NCBI GenBank assembly: GCA_902500995.1
Contig: CABVSR010000029.1
Span: 1-44,183, forward strand
DNA from: an uncultured Nitrospira sp.
Lineage (GTDB): Bacteria > Nitrospirota > Nitrospiria > Nitrospirales > Nitrospiraceae
Direction: 5' to 3'
Length of the DNA stretch: 44,183 nucleotides
The notes under the pieces are model-generated. The model had not been told where the DNA came from and ran no database searches. It was given only the letters and a program-made list of their open reading frames with translations. Of this stretch, positions 1,441-16,953 are shown one piece after another. Made by a program: the position numbers and the translations under genes. Numbering within the stretch: position 1 is the stretch's first letter; the number at the start of each line of letters is the position of its first letter.

Positions 1441-2628
1441 TCAGATGTGGGAACTGCAGAATGGCTGGAGATGACTCAGACTCACATTCTGCTTGGCATA
1501 CGTCGTTCCGACCATCTGAATGTCTTTGATATGGGCAATCGAATCCATCACCTGCACGGTCTCGGGTCGCATGTCTCCGAGTTTCATGGCCTTCAATCCA
1601 GCTTGGCTGACGTCCGGATCATACCGCACATACGTGAATTGTTTCGTTCCCGTCCAGTTGGAGGTCTGCGCGTCTGCCGCCATCACCATGTCGCCGATTT
1701 CGCGGTCGATCTGAGCGCCGAAACGGCAGTCCCCCAGCATGCGGCAGGCCATATCCCATCCGGCGCAGGCCGCATTCATCAGAGCGCGCGGAACATTCCT
1801 CGCGTGATCTCCTAACCACAGATCATTTGCTTGCAAGTCGGGACGCGCTTTGGCGGCGCAGCCGGTCCCGACCGAGACGATCAACAGCTGGTCCCGGCCG
1901 GTGGACCAGTTGAGCTTATAGGGCGCTGCCGTCGCCATTTGGAAGGCAAGGAAGGCCGGATTGTTGTAGGTGGTCACTCCGCCATCGACGAACACGAACT
2001 GATATTCACTCGGCGTGCCGGGCGCGAAAGTTACCACCTCGGGCGGAAAGAAGGTCGGCGCAGCCGTACTGGCCCTCACCAATTGCCAGAGGGGAAGGTT
2101 CAAATTGCAGTCTTTGCGCTCAAGCTGGTTGTACTTGGCGTGGGGATTGTTCCAGACCGGCCATGGAGAATCGGTGGTGTGATTGCGAAGGACCATCATC
2201 AGCAGGGTGCGCAGCCCTTTGTCGCCGAGGGTAGCCAGCGGCGATCCAACGGGGTATCCCAGCGCGCGATTGAGTTCGGTGCGCAGTTTTGCCGCCAGCG
2301 GTTCATCGTTGTAGCTATAACGCAGCCGCTTGAACACGGAGGCCTTGTCGAACATCTGCTCGCCGCTCGACACATAAAAAGTGCGGATCTTCTCCATGGA
2401 CATGCCGGTCGCGATGCAGGCGGCGATGATGGCGCCGGTGCTGGTTCCGCAGACGAAATCGAACCAATCGGCCAGCACCAATTCGGGTTGGCCGAGTTCA
2501 GCGCGAAGATCGGATTCCAGCTTGGCGAGAATCTCCACGCTGATCAGTCCAAGTATTCCCCCGCCGTCGCAAGCAAGGATTTTTTTCGGGGTGGTGGGAT
2601 TCAGCTTTGCTTTCAACTTTGAGGTCAT
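1441..2628 (-). CDS. Patatin-like phospholipase
   Basis: This 395-residue protein has the patatin signatures: the glycine-rich oxyanion loop DGGGILGL (21-28), the nucleophile elbow GTSTG (61-65, Ser63) and the catalytic Asp in VDGGVTTYNNP (Asp215). The Ser-Asp dyad is complete, so an active acyl hydrolase acting on membrane phospholipids is expected. Patatins of this type serve as membrane-damaging effectors in anti-phage systems (for example CapV of CBASS), but no CD-NTase or other cyclic-nucleotide synthase is visible here. The ATG is preceded by GGAG at suitable spacing. It lies 88 bp after the nSTAND gene and 96 bp before the DUF4062 gene on the same strand, which suggests co-transcription. 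Its role as effector of the cluster is inference. Confidence 0.93.
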   Translation of the reverse strand: MTSKLKAKLNPTTPKKILACDGGGILGLISVEILAKLESDLRAELGQPELVLADWFDFVCGTSTGAIIAACIATGMSMEKIRTFYVSSGEQMFDKASVFKRLRYSYNDEPLAAKLRTELNRALGYPVGSPLATLGDKGLRTLLMMVLRNHTTDSPWPVWNNPHAKYNQLERKDCNLNLPLWQLVRASTAAPTFFPPEVVTFAPGTPSEYQFVFVDGGVTTYNNPAFLAFQMATAAPYKLNWSTGRDQLLIVSVGTGCAAKARPDLQANDLWLGDHARNVPRALMNAACAGWDMACRMLGDCRFGAQIDREIGDMVMAADAQTSNWTGTKQFTYVRYDPDVSQAGLKAMKLGDMRPETVQVMDSIAHIKDIQMVGTTYAKQNVSLSHLQPFCSSHI

Positions 2629-2716: not shown

Positions 2717-5700
2717 TCACCGAATTCCAAGTTCTGCCAGGTCACTGATGCCCTTCAGCGCCGTTTCATCACGGGGAGAAAGTTTTGCCGCCTGTTGATA
2801 GGCTTTTAACGCAAGGCCATACTCCACCAAGGATTTTTCTTTTAGGCCGTCCGCATCGAGTTCATCGGCCAGGTATTTTCGCATTTCCGCCAGCTTGTTC
2901 TGATGCTCAGGGTTTTTTCTGTCGATAGTGGCAGCGGATTGCAGATAGACTATGCCTATGCGCACCGCTTCTTCCCACCCGGCTTTTTGAGCTGCTCTTC
3001 GCACCAAGCCTTGTCCATAATGAGCGTTGCTTAGGTCCCAGAGACGATCCGGATTTTTCGGGTTCCTTAGTAAGATCGCCTCCGCGTCAGCGACCTCATC
3101 CTGCACCACGGCCAACGCCTCAGCCAAGCGGTTGCTGTTATAGAAGGACAAGCCAAGCGTGCGGCGTGCCGCAAGCAAATGGTCATCCATCGGTTGCGCA
3201 TCATGCTCGGGTTTGAGCAATGTCGCGATCCATGCCATGTGAATCATCAGACTACGTGCGGCCGCTCCTTCCTTTGTATCGCCGAGTTTTTCATGCGTAA
3301 GCTGGATCCAGTTATATATGTTGCGGAGGTTGTTATATCCGCTGAATGCCGTGGGCTGTAGTCCGATGTATTCACGCAGATCTGATTCTGCAGCGCGGAA
3401 CTCGGCAAGTGCGGCAGTGTGTTCGCTCCTCCTGAACAGGTCGGCGCCTTTGCTCACATGTGTAAAGTGTGAATCATTTAACGTTTCGGCATCAGCTTTC
3501 TCTTGTTTTACAATTCGTGAGAGGTGCTCGTAGCGGTCTTCTAACCGTTTAACATTCTGGTCGGTCAGATCAGGATCTTTTTTGCCCTCGGTCTTTCGCC
3601 GGAGTTTGTTCTCAAGGGCTTTGGCATCCAATAGATACCCGACGATGACCAAACTTTCTTCGTGAGCCGTAAGATCAAGATGTTCGAACATGACGATGGA
3701 TCTTTGCAGCGTGGCTTTGGCCTCGGCCCAGCGATCGAGGTCTGCCAGCGCTTTGGATTGATCCAATAAGGTCGCCGCAAGTTGCATTATTCCTTCCACA
3801 TCTGAGCCACGGTCGAGAATAGAATCATTGTAGAGCCGTTCGGATTCCTGCAATGCTGCCAGGCGCTCAGCTAGGCGAGCTTGCGCTGCAAGCACTTTTG
3901 CCCGCCCCTGACGCGCCCAACCGAGATCGCGTTGCCATGCCATATCGCTGCGGTCGAGCGTTGCCAAGGCGCTGAGCGTCGCAGTTCCCTTTAAATTCGT
4001 GATTTCCGCTTCTTTGAGCGAGGACATCGATTTACAGTCTTTTGTTTTGCTCTGGTTGCAGACCACGATCCCTTCAGCTATCAATAGCTGGACCGCTGCA
4101 TATTCCCTTTCCCATAGCCGATTGGTGGGATCTTGACGTCGCAACTCGTCGAATTCAGCCAGGACTCGATGGTAATCCTCCAACGCATGATGAGGTTTTT
4201 CAAAAAACCTACTGTTCGCTAGATAGGCGAGGGCCGTGGCTTTTTGCCTTGTGGCTGATGTTGACGCCGGACTCAGCCTTGTCGCTTCCCTTGCCAGTCG
4301 GACCGCTCCTTCATAGTCCTCCGTCACGTAATAGATGTTCGCCCGTAACATCTGGGCTCGACTGAGCACTTCGAGTGCCTTTGCGTCCGGATAAGGCGCA
4401 ACTTTGCTTGCCACCTGGCCGCAGCGTCCAAAAGGGACGGTTGTGACAATGTTGAGGGCTTTGGCGAGGTTTTTTCCAGCCAGCGACGTGTTGCCCATGC
4501 GGTTATTCAGTTCACCTGTCGACGTGAGGCTGTCGGCGAAGCTGGTGCAATCGTCCACGTTTACTGCTGCATTGGTGATTATCTTGCTCCACAGCGCTAC
4601 CGCGGCTTCGTACTGGTTCAGCGCCTGGACAACATGGCCCTGCACGGCCAACGCTTCTCCCAATCGCTCATGAGTTCTCGCAATCTCTCGCGCACGATCG
4701 AGAGTGTCGGGACTGTCCTCGATGGCTTTTTGGGCCAGTTGGAAAGAATTGACTGCGTGTTCGAGTTCGCCGTGAGTTCTCTGAAGATCGCCGGTATTGC
4801 GTAGGGCGAGCCCGCGAATGAGGGCCGTTCTTTGTTTTGCATCGGTCTCGTAAGCCAGTACCTTGGCCTGCACCTGCTCGAGGATAGTATTGCGTCCCAC
4901 ATCACGAATCTGTCCAAGGAGCTGTTCGCCGAGCAAGAAACCGAGCAATTCTTCCGCATGCCGTTGGGCCGACTCCGCTGTATCTCTAGCCTGATAAAGC
5001 AAGATCGCGGAGCCCGCGGCAAGAATGAAGAGGAACCCGACAAGGAGACCAAAAAACTTTATCCGTGTGGCCTCGGCCTGTGCTTCTTTCGCCAGACGTT
5101 CCTGCTCATCCCGCTGCCGCTTAATTTTACGTTCGTCTCTGGCCTTCCGCACCACTGGAACGAGCCGGTCGTGGATCAACTCCACACGGGCGGTATCGGG
5201 ATGATGGACGAGTCGCAGCAAACGATGCCTGTCGGTTAGTGCGGCCAGTTGTTTCTTGGTGAGTAAATTTTTGCTCAGGGCTTCTTCGTTTGGAAAGGCA
5301 CCGCGAAAGTGATCGCCTTGGATCAAATAGTCTTCGATGAACAAGGCCACGTCGGGTGGTCCCTTCACGTCATCATCGTCGAGCGACTCTCGGTAGAAAC
5401 CCTCCAAAATGTCTTTCCCGGTTTGCTCAACCAATGCCTGATCGATTGTTGCGCCGTCGCCCCTTCGAGCATTGAGCCTGGAACAACAAAGGCTCAACAG
5501 AACAGGCTCAATAACCATCTCGGCCATACCGGCTGCATCGTGGTCTCGTTTGCCGACCAGATCGACGATGGATGGCGCCACATCAGCGTTGAGCACTTCT
5601 TTGCCGGCGTGCGCGACCGCTTCGATCGCACACTCCCTTGACATCGGGTTAAGTCGTAAATAGTTCTTGAGCAATGAGGGAATTTTCTGCTCCCACGCCT

Positions 5701-6349
5701 GTACCTCGGGCAGGAAATCCTCTCGGAAGGACAGGACCATGCGATAACGTTGGGATTGCAGGTCCAATGTTGAGCGCGCGGCTCCTGCTTCTTCATTGAA
5801 GATCTCAGGCGGGAACCGGTTTTCTATAAGGTCTGCCAAGCTAAACATCACGTTCGTGATCAACCCGGCATCGCTGCTCCTATTCGTAAACAGCTCTTCA
5901 AACTGATCGAACACGAGGACGGGGGTGAGAGGGAAGTTGTCGTGGCTCCACATTCTTAAGTCTTTGCGATGCAGATACTCCCATATTCCTCCGCCATGGC
6001 GAGGTTCAGGATATTCTGCCTTCTCTTTGTCCAATTCCTCCCTGAGCCTTCGCATGACTTGTTCGAGGGGCGGGTCTTTCATAACATCGGAAAACTCCAT
6101 TCGCACATGGACGGGTAAATAGTGTTGCTCGCGCAGCTTGGGGTAGAGTCCCGCTTGCAGAAGGGATGTTTTGCCCAATCCGGACTTGCCGTACACGACT
6201 GTCAGCGGAGCCGATCGGATGAGTCGATAAAGTTCTTGTGCTTCGTCATTCCGGCCGAAGAAGAATGCGCTCGAAGCCTCCTCGTAGGCAGCCAACCCAG
6301 GCCATGGATTGTAGGCATTCAGGTCGGGTGAAATCTCCAGCAACATCAT
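2717..6349 (-). CDS. nSTAND NTPase with transmembrane segment and TPR-rich C-terminal half
   Basis: The product is about 1210 residues. The N terminus has the nSTAND entry motif (NPWPGLAAYEE, FFFGRNDE), a P-loop GKSGLGKT (about 54-61) and Walker B VLVFDQFEELF (about 144-154). The STAND winged-helix boundary motif ELIHDRLVPVVRKAR lies near 391-405. A basic/charged helix leads to one membrane segment (about 432-453), then roughly 750 residues of TPR-like helices. STAND proteins are NTP-driven switches in which the superstructure repeats sense a ligand and the NTPase oligomerises. The start is ambiguous: ATG 6349 overlaps the upstream TGA (TGATG) and GTG 6352 is also possible. Either way it is translationally coupled to the SIR2-TIR gene. 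It has no effector domain of its own, so the neighbouring patatin, TIR or SIR2 proteins are candidate outputs (inference). Confidence 0.9.
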   Translation of the reverse strand: MMLLEISPDLNAYNPWPGLAAYEEASSAFFFGRNDEAQELYRLIRSAPLTVVYGKSGLGKTSLLQAGLYPKLREQHYLPVHVRMEFSDVMKDPPLEQVMRRLREELDKEKAEYPEPRHGGGIWEYLHRKDLRMWSHDNFPLTPVLVFDQFEELFTNRSSDAGLITNVMFSLADLIENRFPPEIFNEEAGAARSTLDLQSQRYRMVLSFREDFLPEVQAWEQKIPSLLKNYLRLNPMSRECAIEAVAHAGKEVLNADVAPSIVDLVGKRDHDAAGMAEMVIEPVLLSLCCSRLNARRGDGATIDQALVEQTGKDILEGFYRESLDDDDVKGPPDVALFIEDYLIQGDHFRGAFPNEEALSKNLLTKKQLAALTDRHRLLRLVHHPDTARVELIHDRLVPVVRKARDERKIKRQRDEQERLAKEAQAEATRIKFFGLLVGFLFILAAGSAILLYQARDTAESAQRHAEELLGFLLGEQLLGQIRDVGRNTILEQVQAKVLAYETDAKQRTALIRGLALRNTGDLQRTHGELEHAVNSFQLAQKAIEDSPDTLDRAREIARTHERLGEALAVQGHVVQALNQYEAAVALWSKIITNAAVNVDDCTSFADSLTSTGELNNRMGNTSLAGKNLAKALNIVTTVPFGRCGQVASKVAPYPDAKALEVLSRAQMLRANIYYVTEDYEGAVRLAREATRLSPASTSATRQKATALAYLANSRFFEKPHHALEDYHRVLAEFDELRRQDPTNRLWEREYAAVQLLIAEGIVVCNQSKTKDCKSMSSLKEAEITNLKGTATLSALATLDRSDMAWQRDLGWARQGRAKVLAAQARLAERLAALQESERLYNDSILDRGSDVEGIMQLAATLLDQSKALADLDRWAEAKATLQRSIVMFEHLDLTAHEESLVIVGYLLDAKALENKLRRKTEGKKDPDLTDQNVKRLEDRYEHLSRIVKQEKADAETLNDSHFTHVSKGADLFRRSEHTAALAEFRAAESDLREYIGLQPTAFSGYNNLRNIYNWIQLTHEKLGDTKEGAAARSLMIHMAWIATLLKPEHDAQPMDDHLLAARRTLGLSFYNSNRLAEALAVVQDEVADAEAILLRNPKNPDRLWDLSNAHYGQGLVRRAAQKAGWEEAVRIGIVYLQSAATIDRKNPEHQNKLAEMRKYLADELDADGLKEKSLVEYGLALKAYQQAAKLSPRDETALKGISDLAELGIR

Positions 6350-7728
6350 CACGATGGCCTGCCCTCATCTCGAACGTTGCGTACCAGCTTCTTGAGCTTC
6401 GCTTCCAAGCGTGTGTCAGGTATGCCTTCTGGAGCGTGGGCAAAATCGATATGACGCTCGTCTCTCCATTTCGGAATGAACGGTGCGGTAAAGAGACTTG
6501 GTTCGAAATCATCATCAACGATGATCGGGAAGAGGAATTCGCGGTTCATGGGAAGGCGATCATCTGCCTGTTCCCACTCTTTGAACAGAAAGGCTTCTGT
6601 GCGATTGTTGCAAGACCTTGAAAGCAGCGGCAGAAAGTATTGGCAGTTACGGATCCCGTCCAGGATACGGCGACGGTATTCATTTCCAGGCTCAATAGTC
6701 TGACGGTCGAACCATATCTCGTTCTCGGTCACGCCCATATTGCGCAGTGATTGGCGCAGCGATTCGGCCCGATGCCGATCGGTTTGTCGCGAATAACTGA
6801 TGAAAAACATCGTTCCGCGAGGTACCGTCTCCTCCGCCTGGCGTTCTGGTTCATTCGCGGTTGCTCCATGTTCTGCCATCCAGCGACGGTGCAGTTCGGC
6901 GACGAACTCAACCGGTGAAAGATCGGAGAGAACCTCGGTCCCTCCCCCGTAGCTGCTGAGAAAGCAGGTAAAGCTTTCTTCCGGCCTCAGCTGATCGATC
7001 AACCATGAGCGCCTATATTTTTCAGCGAGTCGTTTGTCGTTCGTGGCACGGAGGAAGAATCGGCTCAACCATTCCGGGAAATTGCACCCGATCAGCAGCA
7101 GACTGCGATTCCGAAGTTCACCCAGGAACACGTTAAGCGTCTTGTGACCATCAGCGATCACCTTATGGGCATATTCCAGGACATCCTCATCGTGAATCGC
7201 GAAAGACGACTTGGCATGCGCTTTCCCAAATAAGTACAAGAGGTGCACTTCGCCGGGTTTCTTTTCCCAATCACGCGGCAGGTCACTCCCTTCACTTGTC
7301 GTCAGATTGAGGGCATGAATGATCTCGTTCACCGTGCAACGATGCGACAGGCTACGGGCGAGCAGGTCGTCTGGAGTCAATGTGACGAACAGTCGAAAGT
7401 CGGCTATAGCGGCCAATTGCGTGATGGGTGCCGGTATCGTAAAGTCCTTAGCATTGCTCACCGCATGTAGCGCTCTCCGCACGTCGTCGCAAAGGTCCAA
7501 TAGGTCGATCCTCCCCTTTAATTGCGAGACGATTTCGTTGATTTCTCGGAACGGCGGCAGCGCGATCGCTCCTGCCTCCCTGCCATAGTCGTTTATGAGG
7601 CGCGCGGCGACTTGTGCTTGTAGTGAACTTGTTCCAGTGGCTCCGACCAGCAGTCTCGTTCCGATGATCGGGACGACATTGTTCTCACTGATCTTTTCCA
7701 GCAGTCTCGCCCATCCTGCTTCGTTCAT
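6349..7728 (-). CDS. SIR2-like-TIR fusion protein
   Basis: The 459-residue protein joins two NAD-related folds. Residues 1-280 follow the SIR2-like layout: VVPIIGTRLL (18-27, nucleotide loop), FVTLTPDDLL (114-123, in place of the TTNYDxxL motif), LLYLFGKAH (163-171, where catalytic SIR2 has His-Gly) and LLLIGCNFPEW (210-220). Residues 307-455 are a TIR domain: MFFISYSR, EIWFDRQTIEPGNE, and LFKEWEQA with Glu384 as the likely catalytic glutamate. The SIR2 Asn and His appear replaced, so this half may bind rather than cleave NAD or ADP-ribose, while the TIR half could be the NADase. The ATG has GAGGGA upstream. The stop overlaps the nSTAND start, implying coupled expression. Activity is inferred. 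Confidence 0.88.
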   Translation of the reverse strand: MNEAGWARLLEKISENNVVPIIGTRLLVGATGTSSLQAQVAARLINDYGREAGAIALPPFREINEIVSQLKGRIDLLDLCDDVRRALHAVSNAKDFTIPAPITQLAAIADFRLFVTLTPDDLLARSLSHRCTVNEIIHALNLTTSEGSDLPRDWEKKPGEVHLLYLFGKAHAKSSFAIHDEDVLEYAHKVIADGHKTLNVFLGELRNRSLLLIGCNFPEWLSRFFLRATNDKRLAEKYRRSWLIDQLRPEESFTCFLSSYGGGTEVLSDLSPVEFVAELHRRWMAEHGATANEPERQAEETVPRGTMFFISYSRQTDRHRAESLRQSLRNMGVTENEIWFDRQTIEPGNEYRRRILDGIRNCQYFLPLLSRSCNNRTEAFLFKEWEQADDRLPMNREFLFPIIVDDDFEPSLFTAPFIPKWRDERHIDFAHAPEGIPDTRLEAKLKKLVRNVRDEGRPS

Positions 7729-7751: not shown

Positions 7752-7875
7752 GGCAGGATGCGGAAGAGGTCTCCCAGCGTGTTCTCGCGTCGCTCGGAGG
7801 CTACATATACTGAAGAGAAGGTGTTGCCTCTTCGCTTGTTGCGGCCTTGCTGGGCGACTTGTTCCGCATCCTGCC
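7752..7875. repeat. MITE/REPIN-like repeat, copy A
   Basis: A 124-bp element with perfect 14-bp terminal inverted repeats (7752-7765 and 7862-7875, GGCAGGATGCGGAA outward). The arms can be extended to about 30 bp with a few mismatches. The reverse complement of 34842-34965 has the same structure and long identical stretches, and 31061-31095 matches the left end. It fills most of the 175-bp gap between the DRHyd-TPR gene and the SIR2-TIR gene, so it may alter transcription within the cluster. Confidence 0.82.
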
Positions 7876-7903: not shown

Positions 7904-9973
7904 TTAGAGTGTTCTGCTGTCGATCCATGTGACTCTTCCGGTCCTTCGCTTCACTTCTTCGTACATGTGAGCTGTACCGCCTGGTCCATCCCCGCCGCTA
8001 CCGTCCCACAGGCAGAGAAAGCGCACGCTGTTGATGCCATACGACAGAGCGGTATAGAGCAGCCACCGATTGCAGCGTTCAAACGGGTTCACACCGTCCG
8101 GCAGCGGCCCAAGTTCATCACGCATGATGCGTGGCTCGTCCTTGAGGCCGGCCGTGAGTGCGTAGAATCGATCACGCCACATAGCGCCGTCAGCAGAAGG
8201 CAGGATCGACCGTTCGATGAATTCCGGTACCTGGAAGGGCAGCATGAGTTGCAGGCGAAGGTTGCGCTTGCGGCAGGCTTCCAGGAATAGTATGTCCCCT
8301 CCGCTGGCCCCCTGCGCGAGGGCGAGGTCGTCCGGTCCCGCGCCCAGTCGATCTAAAGCCTCGGCAATACATTCTTCCGCGACTGCTTCTTTTGCCGGTG
8401 GAAAGCGTGGTGTGGGACGATCTGGCTGGTCGATCATGTGGCCGCTGAAGAGGACGACCAGTCGTGGTTGCCATTGTGCTTCGGGCTGTACGTTTTTCAG
8501 CGCGCGGTCGAACACGGCGATCCCGGCCTCGACATTGTCAGGGTGAAAATCTAAGTCTTTAAGCAATTGTAGCTGCGCGCGCGAGGAGTTCAGCGCGAAC
8601 CAATCTTTGTCATTCTTCGCGATGGCCTCCTTGTAGACGGATTTGACCCTGTCAGGTGTCCCCAGCAGCAGTTCCAGATCTCCGAGGGTGGCTTTAGCCC
8701 AGAAGAGCGCATGTTCGTTCGGTTCGTGCTCGGCGGCGAATCGGACGGCACCGGCCATGCTCTCCATTTCCTTGTCAAAGCGGTCGTCGTGCGTGAGGTG
8801 CCGATGCAGATGCATTAAAGTGAGTGCATTAATGCCGGAGTAATAGTGGTGAGGATTGCGCCGATAGGCGATCGTGTAGCTCTCAATGGCCTCGCGCAGC
8901 AACGCATCCTCTTCTGCCGCCTCTACGCGCCACTGGTCCACGGTGTTGCCATGCCGGCGCCAAGCTGAGATCCAGGCGTCTTTATCTACCCGACCGAGGC
9001 CTGCCCAGATCTCCGGATCGGATGGATAGGTCTCCAAAACCTTTCGGTAGTGTGCTCGTGCACGATCCAACGAATGGCCGGCTCTGCCCGCCAGGGCGAG
9101 TCGTTGCAGGCAGAGCCCTTGCTCACTGAGTCCCTTCAGGTTATGTGGCTCAATAGATAGGCCGCGCTCGAGTTGTTCCAACGCGAAGCCGAAGCGTTCG
9201 GCCTTCCTCAATGTCTCGCCTGCCTTGATCCAAGCCTCGGCGCGGAAGGCGGCAATCGGTCCTTCGTCGGCTAGTACGAGGACATCGCCAATGTGTCCGG
9301 CCTTTCGCGCCAGGGAGATGCGGCGTTCCCATGCGTCATGCTGCTCCCAAAATTCCTGCACATCACCGATGCGGAGTGATTTCCAATCGGGTTCCTGCAG
9401 GTTGGGCATCAAGTGATAGACAGGACTCACCTTGTGGCCGTGCCACGACTCCATCGTCGCCTTGACCATGTCGGCAAGATTTTTCTTGTCCTGTTCGACT
9501 GTCGCAGGATCTGGTCCACCGCTCTTGACGTCGTAGCGCAACTTGCGATCGGTATAAAGGTCGAATGCAGTTGGGACTCGTCCGCCGGAAATCAGAACGA
9601 TACCGCGTGCCCGTAGCGCATGGCGCACGCCCACTTCGTACCAGACGTTGGGATTGTCAATTGTAAGGTCAGCCACAACCAGGTCGGCGATCAGGAGCTC
9701 CTGGAACATGTCCGTGCGAATGTCACCTGGCTGCACTTCCTTATCGGCCCGAAAAGGGTTAAGCCCGGCCGCTTCTAGAGCCGGCTTGATCAGCTCCGCA
9801 TAGACCCGGTTGAAATCAATTTCGTTGCCTTGGCGGTCTGTTTTCACGCCAAACGGCATGGCGACAAAGGCGTGGGGCTTCACGGCATTCTCCGAAGGAA
9901 GAACAATCTCATCTGACGCGAGAGCCAGGTTTGTATTCCGGAATACTCGGGGCGCATCATACTCTTTTTGCAC
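7904..9973 (-). CDS. TIR-like (DRHyd)-TPR (DUF4071)-SLOG-like protein, ASK-type architecture
   Basis: The 689-residue protein has three parts. Residues 34-150 form a TIR-like/DRHyd Rossmannoid domain (HAFVAMPFG, PFRADKEVQPGDI, LLIADLVVADLTIDNPNVWYE). Residues about 200-490 are TPR-like helices resembling DUF4071, the central region of MAP3K5/ASK1. Residues 502-689 form another Rossmannoid with LVVLFSGHMID and QGASGGDILFLEAC (around 555-566), which resembles SLOG-type nucleotide-binding domains. Similar bacterial proteins are usually annotated 'TRAFs-binding domain/tetratricopeptide'. The start is GTG 9973 with no clear ribosome-binding site; an alternative in-frame start is possible but would cut into the first domain. 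It is the promoter-proximal gene of the cluster. A signalling or nucleotide-processing role is inferred. Confidence 0.82.
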   Translation of the reverse strand: MQKEYDAPRVFRNTNLALASDEIVLPSENAVKPHAFVAMPFGVKTDRQGNEIDFNRVYAELIKPALEAAGLNPFRADKEVQPGDIRTDMFQELLIADLVVADLTIDNPNVWYEVGVRHALRARGIVLISGGRVPTAFDLYTDRKLRYDVKSGGPDPATVEQDKKNLADMVKATMESWHGHKVSPVYHLMPNLQEPDWKSLRIGDVQEFWEQHDAWERRISLARKAGHIGDVLVLADEGPIAAFRAEAWIKAGETLRKAERFGFALEQLERGLSIEPHNLKGLSEQGLCLQRLALAGRAGHSLDRARAHYRKVLETYPSDPEIWAGLGRVDKDAWISAWRRHGNTVDQWRVEAAEEDALLREAIESYTIAYRRNPHHYYSGINALTLMHLHRHLTHDDRFDKEMESMAGAVRFAAEHEPNEHALFWAKATLGDLELLLGTPDRVKSVYKEAIAKNDKDWFALNSSRAQLQLLKDLDFHPDNVEAGIAVFDRALKNVQPEAQWQPRLVVLFSGHMIDQPDRPTPRFPPAKEAVAEECIAEALDRLGAGPDDLALAQGASGGDILFLEACRKRNLRLQLMLPFQVPEFIERSILPSADGAMWRDRFYALTAGLKDEPRIMRDELGPLPDGVNPFERCNRWLLYTALSYGINSVRFLCLWDGSGGDGPGGTAHMYEEVKRRTGRVTWIDSRTL

Positions 9974-10261: not shown

Positions 10262-12145
10262 TCAAATCTCCAGCACCAATCCGATCTCCACCGCTTGTTC
10301 CGACGGCAGGTGGAAGTAGGAACTGGCGCGCTGAGTATTGCGCGACAACACCACAAAGAGCTTTTCCCGCCAGATCGCCATGCCCGGCGTAGGTGTGGCG
10401 AGAAACGTAATTCTGCTCAGGAAAAATGGGGTGTCCTGTATCCGTAGCACATGCCCATGCGTGGCCAGCTGCTCCAGGACGCGAGGAATATCCGGGGTCT
10501 CCATAAATCCGCAGCGGGCGATCACTTGAACAAGATTGTCCTGAATAGCCGTGATCTCCAAAGGCGCTGTCGCCGGAACAAACGGTACATGCTCCGTGCG
10601 AACGGTGAGCAGATACACGCGTTCGTGCAAGGTTTTGTTGTGCCGGACGTTTTGCAACAGGGCCGGCGGCGTGATGTCGGGATGTTGCGAGAGGAACACG
10701 GCTTGACCCGCCGTCCGGCATTCCACCTTCGCTAGGACTTCAGCGGCGAATTGGCGCAACGGTGGAAATTGCACCCGCAGGTGCTCGGCGACGATGGCGC
10801 GACCTCGTGCCCAGGTGCTCATCACCGTGAAGATGGCCGCCCCGAGCAGCAGCGGAAACCACCCGCCGTGAGGGATCTTCTGGGCATTCGCGAGAAAAAA
10901 CGCGAGGTCGATCAACAGGAACGTCCCGACCGCCAGGATCGCCGGCGGCGCGCTCCAGCCCAAGTGGTGGCGGGTGACACGATACATGAGCAGCGTCGTA
11001 ATGATCATGGAGCCGGAGACGGCAATGCCGTAGGCCGCGGCCAGGTTGGTGGACGAGCCGAACGACAGGATCAGCCCGACGGTGCCGATGAACATCAGCC
11101 AGTTCAGCAGGGCGAAATAGATCTGTCCATGTTGCTCCGCGGAGGTATGCGTGATCCGTAAGGGCGGAAGATAGCCGAGCTGCACCGCTTGCAAGGTCAA
11201 CGAGAAGGCGCCGGACAACATGGCCTGCGAAGCGATGATGGTCGCCGCCGTCGCGAGCGCGATCAGCGGGTACAGCATCCAGTCCGGGGCCAGATGATAA
11301 AAGGGGTTGGCAAGAGCCGCCGGGTCTCGCATGAGAAGCGCGCCTTGGCCGAAATATTGAAGCAGCAATGCAGGCAGCGCCACGGCAAACCAGCCGAGTT
11401 GAATCGGGCGGCGGCCGAAATGCCCCATGTCTGCGTACAGCGCTTCGGCTCCCGTCAGCACCAGAAACACACTACCCAATACCAGAAAACCGATTCCCGC
11501 ATGGTGAATGAGAAAGCCGGCGGCATACCACGGATTGGCGGCGATGAGCACGGCGGGGGTGTGGATCACGCTCTGCAGCCCCAGCAGAGCCAAGGCGGCG
11601 AACCAGACAAGCATGACCGGACCGAAAATACTGCCTAACGTGCCGGAGCCACGGCGTTGGATGGTGAACAGCAGCGCGACCAGTGCGACCGTCAGGGGCA
11701 GCACGTAAGGGGTGAAGAGGTCGGTCGCCAACGTCAGCCCTTCCACTGCGCTCAGGACGGAAATGGCCGGCGTGATGATGCCATCGCTGTACAGAAAGGC
11801 GACGCCCACCAGGCCCAGCGAGACTACCAGGCTCAGCCCTTTGCGGAGGTTGACGGGATGGGCGCGTTGGCTGAGCGCCATGAGCGCCAGCATGCCGCCT
11901 TCCCCGTCGTTATCGGCCCTCATCACGAAAAGGAGATACTTCACCGTCACGATGAGCACGAGCGACCAGACGATCAGCGAGACGATGCCCAGCACGTTGT
12001 CCGGCGTGACGGCGAGTCCATGTGATTCATGGAAACATTCGCGCAGGGCGTAGAGCGGGCTGGTGCCGATGTCTCCATACACCACACCCATGGCAGCCAC
12101 GGTGAGGGAGGCGGAGGCCGGTGCGTTGTGCGGCTGTTTCGGCAT
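10262..12145 (-). CDS. kup: KUP-family potassium uptake protein
   Basis: The 627-residue length and sequence fit the KUP/HAK/KT family of proton-coupled inner-membrane K+ transporters. The N terminus carries the family motif GVVYGDIGTSPLYALRE, with about twelve hydrophobic segments following (e.g. PAISVLSAVEGL, TGAEALYADMGHFGRRPIQ, GQGALLM). A roughly 170-residue hydrophilic C-terminal domain ends the protein (VFLSQHPDITPPAL, FFLSRITFLATPTPGMAIWREKLFVVLSRN). The ATG at 12145 has no strong ribosome-binding site. It is read divergently from tex, convergent with nothing, and appears to be a stand-alone gene. Confidence 0.97.
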   Translation of the reverse strand: MPKQPHNAPASASLTVAAMGVVYGDIGTSPLYALRECFHESHGLAVTPDNVLGIVSLIVWSLVLIVTVKYLLFVMRADNDGEGGMLALMALSQRAHPVNLRKGLSLVVSLGLVGVAFLYSDGIITPAISVLSAVEGLTLATDLFTPYVLPLTVALVALLFTIQRRGSGTLGSIFGPVMLVWFAALALLGLQSVIHTPAVLIAANPWYAAGFLIHHAGIGFLVLGSVFLVLTGAEALYADMGHFGRRPIQLGWFAVALPALLLQYFGQGALLMRDPAALANPFYHLAPDWMLYPLIALATAATIIASQAMLSGAFSLTLQAVQLGYLPPLRITHTSAEQHGQIYFALLNWLMFIGTVGLILSFGSSTNLAAAYGIAVSGSMIITTLLMYRVTRHHLGWSAPPAILAVGTFLLIDLAFFLANAQKIPHGGWFPLLLGAAIFTVMSTWARGRAIVAEHLRVQFPPLRQFAAEVLAKVECRTAGQAVFLSQHPDITPPALLQNVRHNKTLHERVYLLTVRTEHVPFVPATAPLEITAIQDNLVQVIARCGFMETPDIPRVLEQLATHGHVLRIQDTPFFLSRITFLATPTPGMAIWREKLFVVLSRNTQRASSYFHLPSEQAVEIGLVLEI

Positions 12146-12441
12146 GCGTGAGCCGCCCGGTGCCGAAGATTCATGGAGTAGGTGGGCTCTGACCGGCGGC
12201 GAACGCGACTATACCATGTCCGAACGGGAATGTCGGCGTGCCTGGCGCAGACAGATGCCACGGGTCCGCCCTGGAAGTTCCTCGAATCTTCTGCTAAATT
12301 CCGGTCGTCGATTCCAAAGGAATCGCTTCGGGATCGCTTCGCGCCGTCCCAGATCATCCCATTCATCCGACAAGAAAGCTCCTGAGACCGGCCGCATGTG
12401 AGTCGGCCGGGCCTCGCTTTCGGAAAGCCTGATAGACGCCC
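12146..12441. promoter_or_regulatory. Intergenic region between divergent kup and tex
   Basis: 296 bp expected to hold both promoters. No gene is supported. The only structure I see is the GC-rich hairpin at 12388-12410 just before tex. Confidence 0.45.
12388..12410 (+). other. GC-rich hairpin in tex leader
   Basis: Arms CCGGCCG and CGGCCGG with a 9-base loop, 31 bp before the tex ATG. It is followed by GCCTCGCTTTC, a weak T-tract. It may be a leader attenuator-like structure or simply a stable stem; function unknown. Confidence 0.35.
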
Positions 12442-14841
12442 ATGACTGCTTCCACGACGCCGACAGTTTCAGCCGAAGCCCAGCAACGTATCGTCGATCT
12501 GCTCGCCAAGGAACTCGGCGTCACCTCTTTGCAAGTGTCGGCCGCGGTAACCCTGCTGGACGGAGGAGCAACGGTACCCTTCATTGCGCGGTATCGCAAA
12601 GAGGCCACCAACAACCTGGACGATACGCATCTGCGCACATTGGAAGAACGGCTCCTCTATCTGCGGGAATTGGAAGAGCGGCGGCAGACGATCCTAGCCT
12701 CGATCGAAGAGCAAGGCAAATTGACCGATCAACTGCGCCGCGCAATCGAGCAGGCGGCAACGAAGCAGGCGGTCGAAGACATCTATCTGCCGTTCAAGCC
12801 GAAACGCCGCACCAAGGCGCAGATCGCCCGCGAGGCCGGCTTGGAGCCACTGGCTGACGCGCTACTCGCCGATCCGACGCTCGATCCTGAACAAGAAGCG
12901 GCCACGTATGTGAAGGTGGTGGCCGCCGCCGAAGGTGTTGAGGCCATCAACGTGCCGGATGCGAAGACAGCGCTGGAAGGCGCCCGCGATATTCTCGTGG
13001 AACGATTCGCCGAAACCGCCGACCTGCTGGCCGTTCTCCGCGCGAAATTGTGGAATGAAGGCATCGTGACCTCGACGGTCCTGCCCGGAAAGGAAACGGC
13101 GGAAGAAGAGAAGTTTCGCGACTACTACGCCTATTCCGAAACCATCCGCACGATCCCCTCACATCGGGCCCTGGCGATGTTCCGCGGGCGGACACTGGGC
13201 GTGCTGAAACTTGACCTGGGTCTCGGCGACCAGCTCGATGCTCAAATCCCGCATCCCTGCGCCGCGCTCATCGCCGCCCGCTTCGGCATTGAGAACCGCG
13301 GCCGGCGCGCCGACAAATGGCTCAACGACGTCTGTTACTGGGCTTGGCGTGTGAAAGTCCATCTTCATCTCAGCACCGAGTTGCTACTGCAAGTGCGCGA
13401 GGCGGCGGAAGCGGAGGCGATCAAGATTTTCGGCCGCAACCTCCACGAGCTTTTGCTTGCAGCCCCGGCGGGGCCGAAAGCGGTGCTCGGGCTCGATCCC
13501 GGTATCCGCACCGGCTGCAAGGTCGCCGTGGTGGACGCCACGGGCAAACTCCTCGACACCGCGACGATTTATCCGCATCAACCGCGCAATGACTGGCAGG
13601 GAGCCCTCGCCACCCTCGTTGAACTTGTTATCCGGCATGGGGTGGAATTGATCTCGATCGGGAACGGCACGGCCAGCCGGGAGACGGACAAACTGGCGGT
13701 CGAGGTCATCAAAATGGTGGCCGAGCGGAAACCGGAGCAGAAGCTGGCCAAAATCGTAGTGAGTGAGGCGGGCGCGTCGGTCTATTCGGCCTCGGCATTT
13801 GCGGCGGCCGAATTTCCAGCATTGGATGTCAGTTTGCGCGGCGCGGTGTCCATCGCCCGCCGGCTGCAAGATCCGCTGGCTGAGTTGGTCAAGATCGATC
13901 CCAAATCCATCGGGGTGGGGCAGTATCAGCACGATGTGAACCAGCGAGCGCTGGCGCGATCGCTGGATGCCACCGTCGAAGATTGCGTCAACGCGGTCGG
14001 TGTGGATGTGAACACCGCCTCGGCGCCGCTGCTGGCGCGAGTGTCGGGATTGAATCGAGTGCTGGCTCAAAACATCGTCGAGTATCGTGACGCGCACGGC
14101 CCCTTCCCCAATCGAGCGACGATCCGCAAGGTTCCGCGCGTGGGCGAAAAAACCTTCGAGCAGGCGGCGGGCTTTTTGCGCATCAATCACGGCGACAACC
14201 CATTGGACCGGTCGGCCGTCCATCCGGAAGCCTATCCGGTGGTCGAGCGTATGCTGGCGAGGTTGAACAAGGGAATCGGCGAGGTCATGGGGAAGCCGGC
14301 TCTGTTGAAGGAGCTTTCGGCGGAGGAATTCACCACCGAGACATTTGGTCTTCCCACGGTGCGGGATATTCTTTCGGAATTGGAAAAGCCCGGCCGGGAC
14401 CCGCGCCCGGAATTTAAAACCGCCACGTTTCGTGAGGGCGTCGAGTCACTGGCGGATTTGCAGGCAGGAATGGTGCTGGAGGGCGTGGTGACCAATGTCG
14501 CGGCGTTCGGAGCGTTTGTCGATATCGGCGTGCACCAGGACGGCCTCGTGCATGTGTCGGCCTTGGCGAACTCCTTCGTGAAAGATCCTCACGAGGTAGT
14601 GAAGCCAGGCCAGATCGTGAAAGTAAAGGTCTTGTCGGTGGATGTGCCCCGCCAGCGCATTTCGCTGACGATGCGGATGGATGATGGGGCGGCGCCGGCA
14701 ACACCATCTGACCTTCGCACAGACGCTTCGCGAGAGAGCAGGGACCGGCGTCCGGCCGAGGCGTCGAGGCTCGCCTCTCGCCCTCCGCAACCAGCAGGCG
14801 CCTTTGCGTTGGCCATGGCACGCGCACAGCAGAAAAAGTAA
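12442..14841 (+). CDS. tex: Tex family RNA-binding transcription accessory protein
   Basis: The 799-residue protein has the full Tex layout. The N-terminal helical part contains [20 protein letters not shown] and [29 protein letters not shown] YqgF/RNase H-like domain begins near residue 345 ([19 protein letters not shown]). Helix-hairpin-helix motifs lie near 520-580 ([37 protein letters not shown]). A C-terminal S1 RNA-binding domain spans about 673-747 ([31 protein letters not shown]). Tex is a cytoplasmic nucleic-acid-binding factor linked to transcription and RNA quality. The last 50 residues are a low-complexity Arg/Ala/Pro tail. Nothing unusual in context. Confidence 0.97.
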
Positions 14842-14876
14842 TGGCGTCGGATTCCGAAGCCGCCACGAAGAGACGG

Positions 14877-15479
14877 CTACGGAGTGATCCTAAAAAAGTT
14901 CCCGCCTTTGAGCCGTTCGTCGTCTGTGCCCCAGACGATCTGTTTCTCGCGTTTCGCGAGGAGCGGGACATGTTTGGAGCAATGGATGTAGGTTTCTTCC
15001 ACGCCGACCACAATCCAGGCTTTCGGCCGCCGGCCGCCCGAATGGCGGGCAGCTTCGATCATCCCTGCGGTGACGTTGGGCAGGGCAGCGATGTCGCCGG
15101 GATCGATGACGCGCGCGGTTCCGTTGACGTGGAGTCCGACCGTCGTCTGATAGTAGTCGAGAAAGATCATGCCGATGTGGGGATTCTCCAGGATATTTCC
15201 CATGCTGGCCAGTACGCCGTTGCCCCGGTATTCCGGATAGGCAAGCGTCTTGTCATCCAATACCTGCACAAAACCGGGCGCGCCGGCCCGAAAGGAGCAA
15301 TCGCAGTTCCCGCGCGCATCCGCGGTTGCGATCGACATCATCTCCATACGCGCGATGAAGTCCCGCATGGATTGATTCAAATACGCCAGGACTTGATGGC
15401 CATAAAATGCCGCGGCGCGCTCGGAGGTTCCGAATCGTGCCTGAGCCTCTTGCTCGCCTGATGATCCCGGCCCTGTCAT
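14877..15479 (-). CDS. Pyridoxamine 5'-phosphate oxidase-like FMN-binding split-barrel protein
   Basis: The 200-residue product fits the PNPOx-like split-barrel family: MRDFIARMEMMSIATADARGNCDCSFRAGAPGFVQVLDDKTLAYPEYRGNG-type sequence, then NPHIGMIFLDYYQTTVGLHVNGTARVID, all typical of flavin reductase-like members. Such proteins bind FMN or F420/haem-like cofactors in the cytoplasm; the substrate cannot be read from sequence. The C terminus has a Cys-containing stretch (TYIHCSKHVPLL) common in this subgroup. The gene converges with tex (35 bp between stops) and lies downstream of the response regulator on the same strand, about 115 bp away, so co-transcription is possible but unproven. Confidence 0.87.
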   Translation of the reverse strand: MTGPGSSGEQEAQARFGTSERAAAFYGHQVLAYLNQSMRDFIARMEMMSIATADARGNCDCSFRAGAPGFVQVLDDKTLAYPEYRGNGVLASMGNILENPHIGMIFLDYYQTTVGLHVNGTARVIDPGDIAALPNVTAGMIEAARHSGGRRPKAWIVVGVEETYIHCSKHVPLLAKREKQIVWGTDDERLKGGNFFRITP

Positions 15480-15594
15480 ACTCGTCGCTCCTGTGATGCC
15501 AGGTTCAGATCCAGAGGAGATGCCCTCGCGGTCCTGGTCCGGCAGTTCGTGGCCCGCCGTCCTCGGGCATAAGCCGTCGACAGGCGCCCGGCCC

Positions 15595-16953
15595 TCAGCT
15601 GCTGGCTTCGTATTTTTTCAACTTGGCCAGCAGGGTCTTGTAGTCGATCTGCAATGTCTGAGCGGCCTTGGTCTTGTTGCCGCCGCAAGCCTGGAGGACG
15701 CGCTCAATGTGCAGACGCTCGATGTCTTCGAGCGGGCGCTGTGTCTCATCGTCCGCCGCGAGGGCCTTGGATGATCGTGGCAGCGCCTCCGCCAGTTCGT
15801 CACGTGTGAGAGGGCCGCTGTTCGGACTCATCAGCACGAGGCGTTCGATGACGTTGCGCAATTCACGCACGTTCCCCGGCCAGGGATAGGCGGTCATGGC
15901 GGCCAGGCTTTCAGTCGTCAATATTCTCGCTGCGGTGCCGGGAAGGCGAAACCGCTCCAGCATGTGGCTCACGAGCGGTGCGATGTCTTCAGGCCGTTCC
16001 CGTAACGGCGGCACAGGCAGCGTGACGGTATTGATGCGGTATAGCAGATCATCGCGAAAGCGGCCCTGGAAGACCAATTCCTGAAGGTCCCGGTTGGTAG
16101 CGCAGATCATGCGCACATCGGCCCGCAGCGTGCGTGTGCTTCCGACGGGGCGGTATTCATTGCAATCGAGAAACCGCAGGAGGCTCACCTGCATGGGCCC
16201 TGGCATTTCCCCCACTTCATCCAGAAACAACGACCCGCCGTCGGCAGCGGCGATGAGGCCGGGTTTCGCCGCCGTGGCGCCGGTGAAGGCACCTTTTTCG
16301 TAACCGAACAATTCACTTTCCAGTAATTCGCGACTGACGGCCCCGCAATTGACCGCGATACAGGGGCCTGCGGCGCGGCGGCTCAACGCATGCAGGCGTC
16401 TCGCCACCACTTCCTTGCCGGAACCGGTCTCGCCTTGAATGAGGACCGGAGCGTGAGAGGGCGCCACTTGAGCGATCCGGGTTTCCAGCGCCCGCCACGC
16501 CTTGCTGATGCCGGTGACCACGAGCTCCTGGCGATAGCCGCCATGCCTCGCTGCAAGATTTTCGCGTCGCAGTTCGCGCAGGGTGCGGAGTTTGGCCAGG
16601 GCCGCCTTGACGGCCGCGCCATCGAACGGCGTGTCCTTGATCAGAAAATCCCAGGCCCCGTCCTTGATGGCCGCCACCGCGTCCTTGACGTCGCCGTGGC
16701 CAGTCAAGACGATGACATCGACATCCGGTTGATGCTCCTTGACCCAGCGCAGCACGGCGCGCCCGTCGACGCCGGGCATTCGCAGATCGGTGATGACGCA
16801 GTCGTAGTCGCCGGAGCGCAGCAGATCGAGACCCTGCTGTCCGCCGGCGGCCGTGCGAGTCTCGCATCCTTCTTCGCGGAGCGCTTGCTCGACGACCAGG
16901 CGGACAAACTCTTCGTCATCGATGATGAGGGTGCGAATGCGTTCTGTGCTCAT
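15595..16953 (-). CDS. NtrC-type sigma-54-dependent response regulator
   Basis: From ATG 16953 the protein has 452 residues. The receiver domain has acidic IDDEE, phosphoacceptor Asp56 (CVITDLRMPGVDG), Thr84 (VLTGHGD) and Lys106. The AAA+ domain has Walker A GETGSGKE (173-180), the sigma-54-contacting GAFTGA loop (221-226) and Walker B SLFLDEVGEMP. A Fis-type HTH ends the protein (IERVLQACGGNKTKAAQTLQIDYKTLLAKLKK). I reject a longer start at 17082 because the extra 43 residues are antisense-like, overlap the kinase gene, and precede the receiver motif. The start lies 4 bp after the kinase stop, so the pair is a classic two-component operon. It activates sigma-54 promoters; targets are not visible. 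Confidence 0.95.
   Translation of the reverse strand: MSTERIRTLIIDDEEFVRLVVEQALREEGCETRTAAGGQQGLDLLRSGDYDCVITDLRMPGVDGRAVLRWVKEHQPDVDVIVLTGHGDVKDAVAAIKDGAWDFLIKDTPFDGAAVKAALAKLRTLRELRRENLAARHGGYRQELVVTGISKAWRALETRIAQVAPSHAPVLIQGETGSGKEVVARRLHALSRRAAGPCIAVNCGAVSRELLESELFGYEKGAFTGATAAKPGLIAAADGGSLFLDEVGEMPGPMQVSLLRFLDCNEYRPVGSTRTLRADVRMICATNRDLQELVFQGRFRDDLLYRINTVTLPVPPLRERPEDIAPLVSHMLERFRLPGTAARILTTESLAAMTAYPWPGNVRELRNVIERLVLMSPNSGPLTRDELAEALPRSSKALAADDETQRPLEDIERLHIERVLQACGGNKTKAAQTLQIDYKTLLAKLKKYEASS

Follow-up and report, generated by a model that had tools for sequence, protein, structure and literature searches.

A Nitrospira protein joining DRHyd, ASK1-like TPR-S and YpsA-like SLOG domains is probably the control subunit of an anti-virus defence system

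We analyzed a 44,183-nucleotide stretch of DNA (the window) from an uncultured Nitrospira sp. and examined a minus-strand gene, here called gene A, whose product is probably the control subunit of an anti-virus defence system. Gene A heads a four-gene operon on the minus strand, in which it is followed by genes for a SIR2-TIR protein, an nSTAND1-TPR protein and a patatin phospholipase. Its domains, conserved motifs and operon, as well as the exchange of its partners, its mobility, and its fusion and fission in other genomes, were established by computation. The features of the locus are as follows:

1441-2628, minus strand: gene D, patatin-like phospholipase of 395 aa in which the GTSTG and DGG motifs are intact
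2717-6352, minus strand: gene C, nSTAND1 NTPase with TPR, 1211 aa (nSTAND1, 105.6 bits)
6349-7728, minus strand: gene B, SIR2-like and TIR protein, 459 aa (Pfam)
7752-7875, unstranded: dispersed repeat of 124 bp, bounded by 27-bp terminal inverted repeats and lying in the gap between genes A and B
7904-9883, minus strand: gene A with corrected start, DRHyd-TPR-S-SLOG protein, 659 aa
7907-8467, minus strand: YpsA-like SLOG domain of gene A, residues 473-659 (separate model and fold matches)
8294-8302, minus strand: GGD (GxD) motif, residues 528-530 (alignment)
8480-9358, minus strand: TPR domain resembling the central regulatory region of ASK1, residues 176-468 (fold, Pfam and profile)
8813-9184, minus strand: Pfam TPR-S part of the TPR domain (PF20308)
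9449-9883, minus strand: DRHyd domain, residues 1-145 (fold, profile and conserved Glu83)
9889-9893, minus strand: GGAGA Shine-Dalgarno-like motif, 5 nt upstream of the GTG at 9883
10262-12145, minus strand: kup-like potassium transporter gene flanking the cassette, named by sequence inspection only

The initial annotation had placed the gene at 7904-9973, which is the extent of its longest ORF (689 aa from a GTG). This ORF is present and lies on the minus strand, but its start was revised to the conserved GTG at 9883. In all close relatives the protein begins at the position matching residue 31 of the longer ORF (MKPHAFVAMPFG), and the GGAGA motif precedes this GTG; therefore, the true product has 659 aa. 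Residue numbers below refer to this protein, and those used earlier are higher by 30. The AlphaFold2 model, built from an input alignment of 25 natural sequences, has a mean pLDDT of 89 and a pTM of 0.82, with three separate domains. Comparison of this model with the top 1000 PDB chains by VIA-align yielded three distinct sets of matches (residues 1-142, 181-468 and 473-659). The Foldseek matches of the whole model were swamped by TPR proteins. The N-terminal extensions of three relatives (L007, L008 and L010) were taken as over-long ORF starts. In another close relative, L035 (G018:C217), the gene A copy is broken into three ORFs with a stop within the middle part. PADLOC contained no system model matching gene A, the promoter and terminator scans of the locus gave nothing above chance, and the Rfam search gave no match.

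The N-terminal part had been described as TIR-like/DRHyd; the DRHyd half of this description stands and the TIR half does not. The nearest fold of residues 1-142 is human DNPH1 (8rpt, Z 14.5 over 118 residues at 2.1 A), nucleoside deoxyribosyltransferases are also matched by this region, and the DRHyd profile matches DNPH1/Rcl at an E-value of 3.9e-4, with YELG aligned over YELG. Glu83 (codon 9635-9637) aligns with catalytic Glu104 of DNPH1, which is the nucleophile of that enzyme (PMC10603095). Glu83, Asp72 and Asn79 are invariant across the sampled, highly divergent DRHyd domains, including those borne by phages. Asp58 lies one residue out of register with the general acid of DNPH1, Asp80, in the HMMER alignment, and its position is occupied by Pro in two-domain relatives. 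With regard to the substrate, a residue known to differ between related enzymes is a Tyr in the deoxyribose-specific enzyme DNPH1 (Tyr24) and a Phe in the ribose-specific enzyme MilB (Phe17), a Phe at this position being linked to ribose substrates (PMC10603095). Structural alignments pair residue 1 of the model with residue 19 in 8rpt and with residue 12 in 4jem. Provided that there is no gap in the first six residues, Phe6 would occupy this position, which would point to a ribose substrate such as NAD+. YELG-containing DRHyd proteins, mostly of 200-330 aa, were also observed on many phage or prophage contigs (L038-L117 and phage matches H38-H52). In the listed Streptococcus phages, the DRHyd genes lie near one end of the record and are perhaps prophage-borne defence genes.

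The central part of the protein matches Pfam TPR-S (PF20308) with 52.9 bits against a cutoff of 27.6. For residues 181-468, the best of all PDB rows is the ASK1 central regulatory region (5ulm, Z 16.8 over 256 residues at 3.5 A). Over model residues 7-468, the ASK1 cryo-EM structure 8qgy was aligned with a Z of 14.0 and an rmsd of 10.8 A, a deviation which reflects different domain placement. The domain order proposed initially, that of the N-terminal half of ASK1, is thus borne out: a DRHyd domain is followed by an ASK1-type TPR domain. Because helical repeats easily reach middling Z scores, the fold match was cross-checked by sequence. The DRHyd-TPR-S family profile matches ASK1 8qgy at an E-value of 1.8e-8 and 5ulm at 1.1e-7, each as a single stretch. 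Designed consensus TPRs and other TPR proteins score well in this search too, so the result obtained with Pfam MAP3K_TRAF_bd (PF13281), which we take to be the present name of DUF4071, is more specific. This family is matched by 12 of 13 relatives (best E-value 8.7e-52), and the gene A protein itself reaches 16.4 bits, below the cutoff of 24.1. Hence, the earlier wording "DUF4071-like TPR" is supported as regards the relation to ASK1, by fold, by sequence and through the relatives, but not by a Pfam match above cutoff in this protein. Pfam did not find a protein kinase domain in the gene A protein, whose C-terminal part is a SLOG domain instead.

This C-terminal domain, modelled alone, has a pLDDT of 92.8, and its best match is Bacillus subtilis YpsA (Foldseek E-value 1.2e-5, Z 15.9); the same region of the whole model (residues 473-659) matches YpsA 2nx2 with a Z of 15.3 by VIA-align. 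YpsA is followed by DprA, ShosA, Moco carrier proteins, LOG, TRPM N-terminal domains and PpnN. The Z scores are 12.0 for DprA, 9.2-9.6 for LOG, 8.2 for TRPM and 7.1 for PpnN, and the first rows outside the SLOG superfamily reach 6.9 and 6.2. As the best 37 structural rows all belong to the SLOG superfamily, the original suggestion that the Rossmannoid with the QGASGGD motif resembles SLOG domains is supported, and the alternative of a non-SLOG fold, which would have refuted it, is not. A GxD/E motif after strand 2 is the signature of the YpsA clade (PMC6459960), and gene A carries it as GGD 528-530 within GASGGDILF; in the family alignment Gly528 is invariant and Asp530 nearly so. The family also has a signature of its own, GHMIDxPDRxxPRFP ... 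GDGPGGTAHM. Pfam and PDB sequence searches with the C-terminal domain alone gave chance matches only. Profile-profile comparison of the domain with DprA, LOG and cpYpsA gave nothing significant; in this comparison cpYpsA against DprA or LOG fails too, and only the DprA-LOG pair matches. Furthermore, no protein in the phylum scores above the cutoffs of the Pfam families LSDAT_prok and YpsA, so these did not serve as references. The SLOG domain of gene A is a new SLOG family without a Pfam model.

As regards the other genes of the operon, gene B has a TIR_2 match above cutoff (58.5 bits) and a SIR2_2 match just under it (24.1 bits, cutoff 24.5), and its end is overlapped by 4 nt by the start of gene C; nSTAND1 as a kind of domain has already been published (PMC8195603). 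In one relative (L003, 11500-15702), the TPR half of the STAND protein has 51% identity to residues 415-1211 of the gene C product (2717-6352), whereas the ATPase halves are only about 29% alike, which suggests that the N-terminal half has been swapped. Genes A and B are separated by 176 bp here, whereas relatives that have this gene pair show gaps of about -3 to 23 bp; for this reason the 124-bp repeat lying between the two genes looks like a MITE-like insertion. Its terminal inverted repeats are 89% complementary, and it has 37 matches in its own genome, this copy included.

To describe the gene neighbourhood in other genomes, 30 non-redundant full-length loci were counted by hand after removal of duplicates (L165=L003, L167=L001, L180=L009 and L181=L002). 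Patatin, TIR or caspase genes lie beside gene A on the same strand in 23 of the 30 loci, and patatin genes do so in 15; no recognised effector gene was found beside A in seven, two of which are on short contigs. Genomes of the genus (about 4 Mb) carry about 4.3 patatin genes each, so that roughly 0.4% of 7-kb stretches would be expected to contain one on a given strand; the comparison with 15/30 is a guide and carries no P value, as the loci are partly related by descent. In close relatives, gene A is kept (79-81%) and the middle cassette varies (SIR2-TIR with nSTAND, TIR with nSTAND, TIR-nSTAND, or TIR-WD40), that is, partners are swapped at one chromosomal site while gene A persists. This site lies between kup and trmL, where the cassette sits in L001, L003, L166 and L169. 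In seven of nine genomes without A, kup and trmL are immediate neighbours (separated by about 75 bp in those measured), so the cassette is an inserted element. The SLOG domain is patchily distributed (25 of 120 relatives), and plasmid-borne relatives exist. In other Nitrospirota, the partners of A, or of the SLOG domain alone, are a caspase and a CHAT/LCAT protein. L172 encodes, next to gene A and a caspase gene, a protein of 1878 aa (11247-16883) that combines two lipase-like parts with a CHAT protease domain and a TPR-S domain of its own.

The three domains are also found apart or in other combinations. In Rhizobium leguminosarum, SLOG and DRHyd-TPR-S are separate genes in a run with genes for a SLATT protein, a muramidase and a patatin, and in Paraburkholderia they adjoin on opposite strands. 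Genes for SLOG, caspase, TIR-TPR-S and patatin succeed one another in a Nitrospirota genome (L145), and on an Escherichia coli IncP plasmid a DRHyd-TPR-S gene is accompanied by one SLATT and two TIR genes. Moreover, a C-terminal adenylate/guanylate cyclase domain is present in a TPR-S-SLOG-cyclase protein (L014, 1981-3846) and in two cyanobacterial RyR-TPR-S-SLOG-cyclase proteins with an N-terminal RyR domain (L015, 7401-9785; L016, 7434-9785). TPR-S and SLOG together thus form the constant core, to which an exchangeable nucleotide enzyme is attached. PLSDB lists a 102-bp "GIM-2 beta-lactamase" with 100% identity immediately behind the Paraburkholderia PGU19 SLOG gene (L239, 7572-7673); so short a match is probably an annotation artefact.

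Several known systems resemble parts of this one. Burroughs and Aravind reportedly described TPR-S systems (J Bacteriol, 2020) and are said to have proposed a prokaryotic TPR scaffold as the source of part of the ASK signalosome. TPR-S systems (PF20308) share with gene A a TPR-S scaffold with nucleotide-processing domains and the relation to the ASK TPR, so the ASK1-like nature of gene A is not new in kind. Gene A differs in that DRHyd, TPR-S and the YpsA-like SLOG are fused into a single protein whose effector set is exchangeable. No description of this SLOG-fused form with exchangeable effectors was found in the literature searched, to which Burroughs and Aravind 2020 did not belong; what appears to be new in gene A is the SLOG family, the fusion and the exchangeable effector set. 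The N-terminal half of human ASK1 (MAP3K5), like gene A, has a Rossmannoid followed by the TPR central regulatory region, but in gene A the SLOG domain takes the place of the kinase domain, and the N-terminal domain of ASK1 binds thioredoxin (PMC10972558). From YpsA, with which it shares the nearest solved fold and the GxD/E motif, the SLOG domain differs by having only about 15% identity and its own family signature. The common TIR-DRHyd-SLOG fold class and its part in NAD+-based defence have been published (PMC9503650). Thoeris (ThsA, SIR2-SLOG; ThsB, TIR) has the same SIR2, TIR and SLOG kinds of domains in one operon, but membership was rejected, as SIR2 is here fused to TIR and SLOG to DRHyd-TPR-S, with STAND and patatin added. 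The gene D patatin matches phospholipase models of CBASS, a system known with the patatin effector CapV; membership was rejected here too, because the score (111.6 bits) is below the NCBIfam cutoff of 200 and none of the four operon genes encodes a CD-NTase. Something else must thus activate the patatin.

From the evidence described above, we estimate about an even chance that the gene A protein, as the constant subunit that both cleaves and senses nucleotides, controls a mobile abortive-infection system of the threshold type. The killing modules exchanged around it are SIR2-TIR, TIR-STAND, patatin, and caspase with CHAT/lipase, and in split relatives also SLATT membrane proteins. Upon infection, the SLOG domain would bind a nucleotide or NAD+-derived signal, which the TPR-S scaffold would pass on, and the DRHyd domain would cleave the N-glycosidic bond of a ribonucleotide or NAD+. 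Its product, or the assembled complex, may then activate the patatin, which would damage the membrane, and the TIR/STAND proteins, which would deplete NAD+, and the activated effectors would kill the infected cell. That the protein would couple sensing to the production or recognition of a nucleotide, as the initial annotation supposed, is made stronger by the conservation of Glu83 and the GxD motif and by the operon partners. More tentatively, the system might be a bacterial ASK-like complex, in which SLOG senses one nucleotide, DRHyd makes or destroys another, and the scaffold triggers a phospholipase as well as NAD+-consuming proteins in the absence of a CD-NTase.

The main alternative to such an enzyme-plus-sensor model is a DRHyd domain that does not cleave, with A merely sensing and recruiting: DRHyd and SLOG would be non-catalytic pockets reading a TIR-made messenger, and A would recruit and open the effectors. 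The SLOG domain of Thoeris ThsA senses cADPR isomers produced by a TIR protein, TIR genes are common neighbours of gene A, the general acid of DRHyd is uncertain, and the thioredoxin-binding domain of ASK1, its equivalent, works by protein binding (PMC10972558). However, mere binding needs no Glu such as Glu83, which is invariant even in the phage domains, and at several loci the neighbours of A include no TIR gene but only patatin (L159 and L173) or caspase with CHAT (L176 and L178). We regard this alternative as possible but somewhat doubtful. It is unlikely that A itself is the toxin, with the DRHyd domain as a NADase or nucleotidase switched on by the SLOG ligand and the downstream genes as separate defence cargo of the island. 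Although DRHyd domains have been listed as NADase effectors of conflict systems (PMC9503650) and the kup-trmL site may serve as a hotspot for defence genes in general, patatin adjoins A or its parts in Nitrospirota, Rhodocyclaceae and Rhizobium, beyond the expectation for a random hotspot, and the 4-nt overlap of genes B and C also argues against this explanation. A housekeeping regulator of nucleotide stress with no role in defence, comparable to YpsA in cell division and ASK1 in oxidative stress, appears very improbable: oxidative stress is the setting in which both YpsA and ASK1 act, but the patchy presence, empty sites, swapped toxic partners and plasmid-borne relatives are marks of a conflict system.

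If gene A is indeed the control subunit of a defence system, it may reveal a new route by which patatin phospholipases are triggered without cyclic oligonucleotides. The new SLOG family is found repeatedly alongside TIR, patatin, caspase, SLATT and cyclase partners. So far, it is from sequence that a bacterial origin of the ASK1 scaffold has been proposed, and the gene A family offers a compact system that retains the predicted ligand pockets and lets the ligand sensed by this scaffold be probed. Should the ASK-like complex prove true, it would reveal the role of the ASK1 scaffold in its ancestral state, before the addition of a kinase.
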